Assembly: GCA_025358125.1 (NCBI GenBank)
Contig: JANYKS010000110.1
Span: forward strand, 1 to 64,000
Direction of reading: 5' to 3'
Length of the DNA: 64,000 nucleotides
Source: Actinomycetes bacterium
Lineage (GTDB): Bacteria > Actinomycetota > Acidimicrobiia > Acidimicrobiales > Ilumatobacteraceae
The notes under the pieces are model-generated. The model was not told where the DNA came from. It made no database searches and saw only the letters and a list, made by a program, of their open reading frames with translations. Numbering within the stretch: the first letter of the stretch is position 1; each line of letters opens with the position of its first letter. Both the position numbers and the translations under genes were made by a program. Positions 43,139 through 45,753 of this stretch are shown in pieces.

Positions 43139-44602
43139 TCAGTCCGTTCCCGGCCGGCGTTGATACTCCGCTCGCGGATCTCCGGTGTAGCCGGGCGGCA
43201 ATGTTGCCAGCAGTTCTTCGTCGGTCGGGACGCGCTTTACCCTGGCCTCCGGCGCCAGCAGCGCGCTGATCGCTTTCATCAGCTTCTTCGTGTCCGCGTC
43301 GGCGCTGCGGTACTTCAGCTCCACAGGCGGCCCGACGTTGATCGTGACGTGCGGCGGATCCGTCAGGTTGAGCACGTTCGGCAGGCGCGAGTTGCGCGGC
43401 CACACCTTCTCGGTGCCCCACAGACCGACAGGGATCACCGGTGCCTTGGTCATCGCTGCCAGCCGGGCGGCCCCCCACCGCCCCTTCAGGACTGGATCGA
43501 AGAAGGCGATTCCGCGTGGGATGGTGCCCTCCGGCATGATCGCAACGATGTCGCCCTGCTCGAGGGCCTCGGCGGCGGCCGTGAGCGGTTCGTCGCTGCC
43601 GCTGCCCCGCTCGACTCGGATACCGCCCATCGCCTTGGCGAGTTGGCCGACGAGCGGTATGTCGAACACTTCCTTCTTGCCCAGGAACCGCACCGTCCGA
43701 CCGCTTTTGGCGATGGCCATCGCCATCGCCAGCGGATCGAAGTAACTGCGGTGGTTCCCACAAAGGATTGCTGGTCCACTCTCGGGGATGTTTTCGACCC
43801 CGCTGATGTCGAAACGCGCGTACGGGATCAGTTGCGGCCGGGTGAACGCGAGTGCCAGCTTTTGCAGATCGCGCCCGCTCACCGGCAGCCTCGAACCGGT
43901 CGACGGCGCGCTGAGGCGGATCACGGGCCAGCGCCGAGCCCTCGCCATGACGGCCATCCGCGGGTCGGGGTTGACGACGAAGGGATGCCCGACGGCGGCG
44001 AGCAGCGGGGTGTCGTACACGCTGTCGCTGTACGCGAAACTGTGGGCCAGGTCGACATCGTGACGCTCCGCCCATTCGCGCACCGCGGCCAACTTGCCGG
44101 CGCTCCACACGAACGGCCCGGTCAGGGTGCCGTCGTAGGTGCCATCGGCGTTGACGCCATATCTCGTCGCAACGACATCGTCGAGGCCGAGCAGATCGGC
44201 GAACGGCTTGACGAGATCGTACGGCGTCGTGGTCGCGAGGACGATCGGCCGACCGGACTCGCGGTGCTCGTCGAACAGCGGCGCGGCCAACGGCTGGACC
44301 ATCGCCACCAATTGGCCGGCAACCGTCTCGGCTGCCTGCTGAACGGCTTCACGCGACTTGCCCCGCACCATCGTGACGGCCTGACGGGCGAGCGCCATGC
44401 TCGGCAGCGTCTCACCGATCGAGTTGAACAGGTTGAACAACAGCTTCTCGCCGGGCAGGCTCCGTCCGACCAGGCCGGCAGCCTTCATCGCCGAACTGAA
44501 GACTTCCCCGGACGCGCCGGCCAGCAGCGTGCGATCGAGATCGAAGAACGCGGCCCCGACGTTGGGGAGTGCGGTGGCCTTGGCTGCTCCGGCTGGACTC
44601 AT
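43139..44602 (-). CDS. HAD-IB phosphatase / PlsC acyltransferase fusion
   Basis: 487 aa fusion. N-terminal HAD-IB hydrolase (residues about 15-225): FFDLDRTLLAG with nucleophile Asp21, and SYSDSVYDTPLL-type motif III. C-terminal 1-acylglycerol-3-phosphate acyltransferase (about 255-440): CGNHRSYFDPLA (NHx4D) and MPEGTIPRG. It resembles the mycobacterial bifunctional protein annotated PlsC, acting in phospholipid synthesis at the membrane. TACGAT lies 6 nt before the ATG. The 6C-like RNA lies just upstream. Confidence 0.9.
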   Translation of the reverse strand: MSPAGAAKATALPNVGAAFFDLDRTLLAGASGEVFSSAMKAAGLVGRSLPGEKLLFNLFNSIGETLPSMALARQAVTMVRGKSREAVQQAAETVAGQLVAMVQPLAAPLFDEHRESGRPIVLATTTPYDLVKPFADLLGLDDVVATRYGVNADGTYDGTLTGPFVWSAGKLAAVREWAERHDVDLAHSFAYSDSVYDTPLLAAVGHPFVVNPDPRMAVMARARRWPVIRLSAPSTGSRLPVSGRDLQKLALAFTRPQLIPYARFDISGVENIPESGPAILCGNHRSYFDPLAMAMAIAKSGRTVRFLGKKEVFDIPLVGQLAKAMGGIRVERGSGSDEPLTAAAEALEQGDIVAIMPEGTIPRGIAFFDPVLKGRWGAARLAAMTKAPVIPVGLWGTEKVWPRNSRLPNVLNLTDPPHVTINVGPPVELKYRSADADTKKLMKAISALLAPEARVKRVPTDEELLATLPPGYTGDPRAEYQRRPGTD

Positions 44603-44617
44603 GTCGTCATCGTAGGC

Positions 44618-44744
44618 GAAAACGGGAAAGGTCCCGCTTGGGGGAAGCGGGACCTCTCAACCTTGGAACCCAGATGCTTTGGGGAAAGCACCGTGGTGGG
44701 TTCTTGTCGAGCAAGTTGTGGGGGACAACTCGCTTCGATCTACA
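44618..44744 (-). ncRNA. probable 6C-type small RNA
   Basis: On the minus strand three hairpins with C-only loops follow each other: TTGT-CCCCC-ACAA (44726-44714 region), TGCTTT-CCCC-AAAGCA inside an outer stem GAACCCA/TGGGTTC, and AGGTCCCGCTT-CCCCC-AAGCGGGACCT (perfect 11-bp stem, 44655-44629), the last followed by TTTCCCGTTTT as a terminator tract. A promoter TTGCAA, 17 nt, CATACT ends at 44751, putting the 5' end near 44744. C-rich loops define the actinobacterial 6C RNA family; loops here have 4-5 C. In M. tuberculosis the 6C RNA also neighbours a HAD-IB gene. Confidence 0.68.
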
Positions 44745-44790
44745 TGTGAAAGTATGCACATGAATCCGTGATCTTGCAAGGAGAAGTTGT

Positions 44791-44805
44791 AGATATCCGT
44801 TATCT
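44791..44805. promoter_or_regulatory. possible LysR-type operator
   Basis: AGATA-TCCGT-TATCT, a perfect 5-bp inverted repeat ending 9 bp before the lysR-type start and overlapping its TATCTT -10 element. LysR regulators often repress themselves through such sites. Short, so the call is tentative. Confidence 0.4.
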
Positions 44806-44814
44806 TTTTTCGAG

Positions 44815-45753
44815 ATGGATCTTCGCCAACTCTCGGCACTCGTGGCAATCGCCGATCATGGCTCGTTCTCGTCGGCCGCGCGGGCGCTCTACACCGTGCA
44901 GTCGAACATTTCCGGCCACATCGCCCGACTCGAAAAAGAACTCGGCGTGGTACTCGTCGACCGTCAACGCGGCGGCCTGACCGACGACGGCGGGCAGGTC
45001 GTCGACCGGGCTCGCCGGATTCTGCGCGAGATGGACGACATTTCCGCGGATATGGCCAGCCGCGGCGATTCGGTCAGCGGTCATTCCCGCTTCGGCATGA
45101 TCGGAACGACCGCGCGCTGGCTGATGCCGCAACTGCTTCCCGCATTCGCCCTGGATCACCCATTGGTGCACGTCACGGTGTTCGAGGGCAACACCTCCAA
45201 CCTCATTCCCCGTCTCATCGCCGGCCATCTCGATGCCGCGGTCGTCCACCTGCCTGTCGACGACCCGGAGCTCGTGATCGAGCCGCTGTTCGCAGAAGAC
45301 ATGATCGTGGTCGTCCACAGCCGCCATCCGTGGGCCGGCGAAGACGAGTTGTCGCTGCAGAAGGTGGCGAGCGAGCCACTGCTCATTCCGCCCAAGGGCA
45401 CGGTGATGCGCCGGATTCTCGACAAGGCAGCCGCCTCGGCGGGCACCACGCTTCGCCCGCAGGCCGAGATCGACGGTGTCCGCCTGCTCACCTCGCTCGC
45501 GATGGAGGGTTACGGAGCCGCGATCGTGCCGTCGACCGCCGTGCCCGGCTGGCTCAAGGGAGACTTCACGCGGATCCAGGTGCCAGAACTGCCGCGCCGC
45601 GTGGTCGGTTGGGTGCAACGTCGGCGGCCGCCCCCCGGCGCCCCCACTCGTGCCTTGCTGCGTACGATGCGCGAGATCCTCGAGAGCCGTGGTGCAATGC
45701 AGCACGGTGTCCATGTCGGCTCGGAAGCGTTTCCACTCGGCAGGAGCCTGTAG
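44815..45753 (+). CDS. LysR family transcriptional regulator
   Basis: 312 aa. N-terminal winged helix-turn-helix (1-60; FSSAARALYTVQSNISGHIARLE) and a C-terminal periplasmic-binding-protein-like effector domain (about 90-290). The inducer is unknown. TATCTT lies 8 nt before the ATG. It is 47 bp upstream of a carboxyltransferase gene on the same strand, so the two may be functionally linked, but LysR targets are more often divergent. Confidence 0.92.
   Translation: MDLRQLSALVAIADHGSFSSAARALYTVQSNISGHIARLEKELGVVLVDRQRGGLTDDGGQVVDRARRILREMDDISADMASRGDSVSGHSRFGMIGTTARWLMPQLLPAFALDHPLVHVTVFEGNTSNLIPRLIAGHLDAAVVHLPVDDPELVIEPLFAEDMIVVVHSRHPWAGEDELSLQKVASEPLLIPPKGTVMRRILDKAAASAGTTLRPQAEIDGVRLLTSLAMEGYGAAIVPSTAVPGWLKGDFTRIQVPELPRRVVGWVQRRRPPPGAPTRALLRTMREILESRGAMQHGVHVGSEAFPLGRSL

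Follow-up and report, generated by a model that had tools for sequence, protein, structure and literature searches.

A three-hairpin C-loop small RNA and its obligate LysR-type partner gene in Acidimicrobiales

In enterobacteria, OxyR is a LysR-type regulator encoded beside OxyS, the small RNA (sRNA) that it controls. In the Rhizobiales, the sRNA of the VtlR/LsrB-AbcR1/AbcR2 system acts on many mRNAs (PMC7486931). The C-rich loops of the mycobacterial B11/6C RNA pair with G tracts beside ribosome-binding sites, lowering both translation and mRNA (PMC12395582), and complementary sites are overrepresented among the genes that are raised in a mycobacterial strain deleted for B11 (PMC10470900). 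The promoter of B11 has been described as housekeeping-type, and its core function is yet to be found (PMC12395582). The activation of C-loop sRNAs of the 6C type is poorly understood, and an obligate regulator with a fixed, operator-like dyad, such as we describe below, lets the input and the output of such an RNA be tested together.

Here we analyze a stretch of 64,000 nt from an Ilumatobacteraceae genome (GCA_025358125.1, contig JANYKS010000110.1, positions 1 to 64,000), called the window throughout. What is new is that a three-hairpin C-loop sRNA has a LysR-type regulator as its obligate partner, which known 6C RNA has not been seen to have; a literature search, whose reach did not extend to key subscription papers, returned no earlier description of a LysR-paired C-loop RNA.

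Structure and conservation of the RNA

The sRNA gene, on the minus strand, is flanked by a LysR-type gene (44815-45753, plus) and an HAD-IB/PlsC gene (44602-43139, minus), and our covariance model R1 scores 118.6 bits there (44618-44750). Its parts are as follows.

44618..44744, minus strand: C-loop sRNA gene of about 127 nt, its ends placed from the promoter and terminator; based on R1, the fold and covariation
44751..44779, minus strand: sRNA promoter, with -35 TTGCAA (44779-44774), a 17-nt spacer and -10 CATACT (44756-44751); read directly, conserved
44737-44708, minus strand: hairpin H1, CGA-A-GCGAGUUGU[CCCCC]ACAACUUGC-UCG; read directly
44703-44666, minus strand: hairpin H2, outer stem GAACCCA/UGGGUUC, inner part UGCUUU[CCCC]AAAGCA; read directly
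44658-44626, minus strand: hairpin H3, the terminator, GAGAGGUCCCGCUU[CCCCC]AAGCGGGACCUUUC, then CCGUUUU; read directly
44619..44662, minus strand: H3 including its near-invariant stem base GGUU-GAGA...UUUC-CC and GUUUU; 98.4% of cells paired

An earlier sequence-only reading had described three hairpins whose loops, of 5, 4 and 5 nt, consist of C alone, and both the sequence and the fold agree, with the H1 loop CCCCC at 44724-44720 and the H2 loop CCCC at 44684-44681 (both minus). The perfect 11-bp stem that it reported for the last hairpin is present as the core of a stem that reaches 14 bp when G-U and A-U pairs are counted. The T-rich tract that it saw after H3 exists but is interrupted (UUUCCCGUUUU). 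The sRNA folds with a minimum free energy of -64.5 kcal/mol, where shuffled sequences give -34.7 +/- 3.5 (z -8.44; none of 200 shuffles reached it). A coding function was rejected, as no ORF of at least 80 aa lies on the sRNA strand at this place and the changes among relatives follow a paired-base pattern.

Strict scans for sigma-70 promoters and for terminators called no site at the sRNA, because each promoter hexamer is a 4/6 match and the T tract is interrupted. The pattern TTGnnA-17-CATACT/CATAAT is nevertheless kept in most relatives, and promoter and terminator are both conserved in dozens of them, so the suitably spaced TTGCAA-17-CATACT promoter and the terminator of the earlier reading were rightly identified. 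In one subgroup (L038, at 2247-2274, L042, L048 and L171), an extra palindrome, TTGTGAT-N3/4-ATCACGA, is inserted between the sRNA -10 and H1; it resembles a CRP/FNR-family site and may serve a second regulator or form a fourth hairpin.

Relatives were collected by a protein search with HAD/PlsC, which gave 80 loci labeled nearly all as Acidimicrobiales/Ilumatobacteraceae or unclassified Actinomycetota, and the same three hairpins stand upstream of HAD/PlsC in most of them. With R1, the sRNA was found in 47 of the 49 genomes of the source's family, usually with a single strong match per genome, and no further copy was found in the source genome. Four of the collected records look mislabeled, since their titles disagree with their content: L061, L063 and L075, MAGs titled Bifidobacterium breve, and L087, titled Acidobacteria bacterium ATN2, carry an Acidimicrobiales-type HAD/PlsC, and all except L075 also carry the sRNA and LysR.

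We drew up the structure manually and checked it against 57 realigned sequences; both sides change in 29 of its 38 pairs and all three stems covary, although the realignment, being fitted to the structure, is by construction biased in its favor. On this set, 384 cells change on both sides against a shuffled mean of 116, paired cells amount to 91.4% against 73.9%, and the score is 0.478 against 0.160. None of 500 shuffles reached any of the five measures, and sliding the structure by one column destroyed the signal (score 0.04-0.09). On a plain MAFFT alignment, RNAalifold already found compensatory changes in H1 and H3 and missed H2, because H2 is misaligned there. The occurrence of the RNA across the family and this strong covariation, the opposite of the absence of covariance in relatives that had been named as counting against the sequence-only reading, confirm that the C-loop hairpins are not due to chance and bear out the putative independent minus-strand sRNA of about 125 nt.

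Both-side changes affect 10 of 12 pairs in H1 and 11 of 11 in H2, and while these stems turn over, the longest C run stays at 5-6 in the H1 loop and at 4-7 in the H2 loop in 57/57 sequences. The terminator is the most conserved part of the sRNA by sequence, and its loop has lost the C run in 19/57. The H3 stem base GGUUGAGA...UUUCCC (44662-44624, minus, and in relatives) is almost invariant, though pairing alone permits change; it might be a contact with a protein or an RNA.

The divergent lysR gene and the shared dyad

The neighborhood of the sRNA contains three further features.

44815..45753, plus strand: LysR-type transcriptional regulator, divergent, 312 aa (Pfam HTH_1 and LysR_substrate)
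44792..44804, no strand: GATA-N5-TATC dyad, candidate site for the LysR-type regulator, conserved between the lysR and sRNA promoters
43139..44602, minus strand: HAD-IB/PlsC fusion gene, downstream of the RNA (TIGR01490 and Acyltransferase)

The LysR protein scores 63.3 bits with HTH_1 and 144.9 bits with LysR_substrate. An ortholog of its gene stands divergently, 63-115 nt upstream of the RNA, in 67/67 scored RNA loci, while seven HAD/PlsC loci without the RNA lack the lysR ortholog too, and the RNA-lysR pair is retained in three loci (L021, L084, L085) where HAD/PlsC is 1.3-2.0 kb off. The divergent lysR gene is thus the constant partner of the RNA, in obligate linkage; part of this linkage could be plain synteny, but the pair survives changes in the rest of the neighborhood. 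A reverse search from the LysR protein returned orthologs, at the thresholds used, only in the order Acidimicrobiales, and C-loop hairpins stood behind the same dyad in 22 of the 25 LysR-anchored loci examined there, two of the others (L179 and L181) having no adjoining RNA and L184 being counted neither way. Throughout family f22 and in a few others, what stands behind the orthologous lysR is a pair of hairpins with six to eight C, much like 6C.

A 13-bp dyad, GATR-N5-YATC with a variable center, occurs at about the same place in 62/66 loci. In the window, its center lies about 54 nt upstream of the predicted sRNA start and the dyad forms the -10 of lysR (TATCTT). Among 30 loci checked, 23 have the distal half of the dyad, TATCnT, placed as a leaderless -10, 8 nt ahead of the lysR ATG. 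Regulators of the LysR type that repress their own gene and activate a divergent one are usually laid out in this way, the two genes sharing a dyad that lies near -50 to -65 of the target and overlaps the promoter of the regulator, and the conserved dyad with its overlap of the lysR -10 agrees with this. The conserved dyad and the linkage suggest that LysR binds here. A freshwater subgroup (L053, L058, L063, L064, L068, L070) has an extra CTATC half-site upstream of the dyad, with about 9-10 nt between CTATC and GATAG-N3-CTATC; such a layout would suit a LysR tetramer that contacts two sites. Thiol peroxide sensing of the OxyR type was rejected, since the 312-aa LysR protein scores well short of the OxyR cut-off and contains no cysteine.

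Two further observations concern the source genome. It has a second, stand-alone HAD-IB gene (L101, G000:C93:21450-22055; TIGR01490, 173.6 bits), which groups nearer the clade of 6C-neighboring HAD-IB genes and beside which no C-loop hairpin pair is apparent. The first 123 positions of the window, which are also the start of the contig (1-123, minus), lie inside a 16S rRNA gene cut by the contig end (Rfam SSU_rRNA_bacteria, 81 bits).

Proposed action and rival explanations

The model that we favor, with moderate confidence, is a LysR-controlled, trans-acting sRNA whose H1 and H2 C-loops block G-rich ribosome-binding sites. The sRNA would be a stand-alone unit transcribed under the divergent LysR-type regulator. 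Sitting on the GATA-N5-TATC dyad, LysR would cover its own -10 and repress its own leaderless gene, and, with its ligand, would activate the sRNA promoter from about -54. The C runs in the loops of H1 and H2 would then act as seeds: several mRNAs would be paired at G runs (GGGG, GGGGG, GGGGGA) within their ribosome-binding sites, keeping ribosomes from entering, while H3 would be mainly a terminator and 3′ protection, its C-loop an optional third seed. Action on G-rich ribosome-binding sites is plausible by analogy with mycobacterial B11/6C, on which this part is modeled. The loss of C from the terminator loop and its strict retention in H1 and H2 lead to a clear prediction of which loops are the seeds.

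A search for G-rich ribosome-binding sites as targets, which the sequence-only reading had suggested, covered 460 kb of the source genome with 298 predicted starts. GGGGG before start codons fell mostly at -15 to -6, the place of the Shine-Dalgarno sequence, so potential targets of the right kind exist in this sample. The motif was found in the ribosome-binding region of 9/298 genes, which is not above the expectation from base composition, and the G run of pyrB (GGGGGGA), the best candidate target in the window, is not kept in relatives, even within the genus.

The position of the RNA on the same strand as the HAD-IB/PlsC gene and directly upstream of it, the terminator and the start codon being 17 nt apart in the window, would also suit a 5′ leader (attenuator or riboswitch) of that gene, an explanation that we rejected as very improbable. 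A TAnnnT element of the Actinobacteria type stands 5-8 nt before the HAD/PlsC start in 44/48 relatives (shuffle mean 2.3, maximum 7), and in the window (TACGAT-GACGAC-ATG) TACGAT lies 6 nt before the ATG, downstream of the sRNA terminator; HAD/PlsC is therefore probably read from its own leaderless promoter, which argues that the RNA is not its leader. The distance from the RNA to HAD/PlsC varies from 16 to 182 nt among relatives, no conserved anti-terminator pairing was seen, and, where a cis-acting leader would always stand in the 5′ leader of the same gene, the RNA is detached in the three loci L021, L084 and L085 mentioned above and in many order-level relatives, with no HAD/PlsC match within about 1.5 kb in L173, L175, L176, L183 and L188-L195. 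The HAD/PlsC gene is a neighbor and not an obligatory part, and the RNA outlives its adjacency. That only the terminator matters, with H1 and H2 as by-products of a strong terminator between divergent genes, is barely conceivable: the terminator is indeed the best conserved part by sequence, but drift affects precisely its loop, H1 has a conserved promoter ahead of it, and H1 and H2 covary in 21/23 pairs with their C loops kept throughout, so that covariation largely refutes it. The C-loops could instead bind a protein, single-strand C-binding or RNA-remodeling, with the RNA as its sponge or scaffold. The near-invariant length and content of the loops would fit this, as would the stem base GGUUGAGA...UUUCCC, though it lies outside the loops, and a conserved mRNA target was looked for and not found, either in the GGGGG search of 460 kb or for pyrB in relatives. 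We nevertheless consider protein binding improbable, as the loops range in length between 4 and 7 C, a drift that fits pairing, and the mycobacterial C-loop RNA acts through base-pairing with G tracts (PMC12395582).

A different question is whether the LysR-controlled sRNA is a true, diverged member of 6C by descent, to which LysR control was added in Acidimicrobiales and which would have the same mechanism as our model; we think this almost as probable as its opposite. The Rfam 6C model (RF01066), whose use had also been proposed, has its best match in the window at the same place as the sRNA, but at 24.1 bits against a gathering cut-off of 47, so that no match is called in the window at that cut-off. 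None of the 61 relatives searched has canonical 6C (0/61 at E <= 0.001; best score 37 bits in L087, again under 47), which speaks for such descent, and the two-hairpin forms with six or seven C behind the same lysR point the same way, although Rfam 6C does not match them. Conversely, R1 matches canonical 6C at the exact place and strand in 8/12 loci, weakly (16-24.5 bits); in a control of 453 kb of DNA, only two 6C copies scored above 12 bits, one further match reaching 11.5 bits, but at whole-genome scale ordinary GC-rich terminators match as strongly as 6C, so part of the cross-match is due to the terminator. Across the phylum, R1 gave weak matches outside the order, and those inspected were terminators; we therefore claim no spread beyond the order. 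The sequence-only reading had taken the HAD-IB neighborhood as support for 6C, which did not hold: canonical 6C loci have an HAD-IB gene in 8/12, divergent from 6C in all eight and of a different clade from the fusion here, which is co-directional with the RNA, and the RNA also occurs without HAD/PlsC. HAD-IB synteny was accordingly rejected as proof of 6C homology. C-loops are also easily evolved repeatedly. Of the 6C-like label, the C-loop architecture stands, and by analogy the sRNA likely works like 6C; it is a possible member of the 6C family, but its score is under the Rfam cut-off and its hairpin number and synteny differ. More tentatively, and in our view rather unlikely, the C-loops may have evolved independently of 6C, the RNA serving a LysR-type metabolite sensor as its dedicated output, with the two non-terminator loops as general anti-RBS seeds.

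If this is true, one regulator and one RNA would form a device through which a metabolite signal reduces the translation of a G-rich-RBS regulon across Acidimicrobiales. The sRNA itself would extend C-loop regulation to Acidimicrobiia, an abundant, little-studied aquatic group in whose 61 relatives searched Rfam 6C is absent.

Comparison with known systems

The closest described RNA is 6C (RF01066; B11 or ncRv13661 in mycobacteria), likewise an actinobacterial sRNA of about 90-130 nt with C-only hairpin loops, a last hairpin that is the terminator, mostly a single chromosomal copy and expected pairing with G-rich ribosome-binding sites. As the sequence-only reading had recognized, the RNA in the window, with three hairpins and loops of 5, 4 and 5 C, departs from the form with two hairpins and about six C; among its relatives, three hairpins with C4-C7 loops stand against the two C-loops of 6C. 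It also differs in its conserved GGUUGAGA...UUUCCC terminator, in its score under the Rfam cut-off, and in having a divergent LysR gene with a dyad where 6C has a divergent HAD-IB gene. The seed of M. marinum B11 is its terminator loop (PMC12395582), whereas here the non-terminator loops are invariant and the terminator loop drifts.

The ar14-type sRNAs of alphaproteobacteria (RF02344) also have hairpin loops with a C-rich anti-Shine-Dalgarno sequence, and the best Rfam match of one two-hairpin relative (L190) is ar14, at 28 bits against a cut-off of 58.8; however, ar14 loops are of the CCUCC type and no locus is shared. In its arrangement, the locus resembles VtlR/LsrB with AbcR1/AbcR2 of the Rhizobiales, where a LysR-type regulator gene stands beside the sRNA under its control, as we infer here. 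Both that system and OxyR-OxyS involve another RNA and another regulator, and the regulator here, unlike OxyR, has no cysteine and is not a thiol peroxide sensor; the pair in Acidimicrobiales is instead divergent, with a shared dyad.
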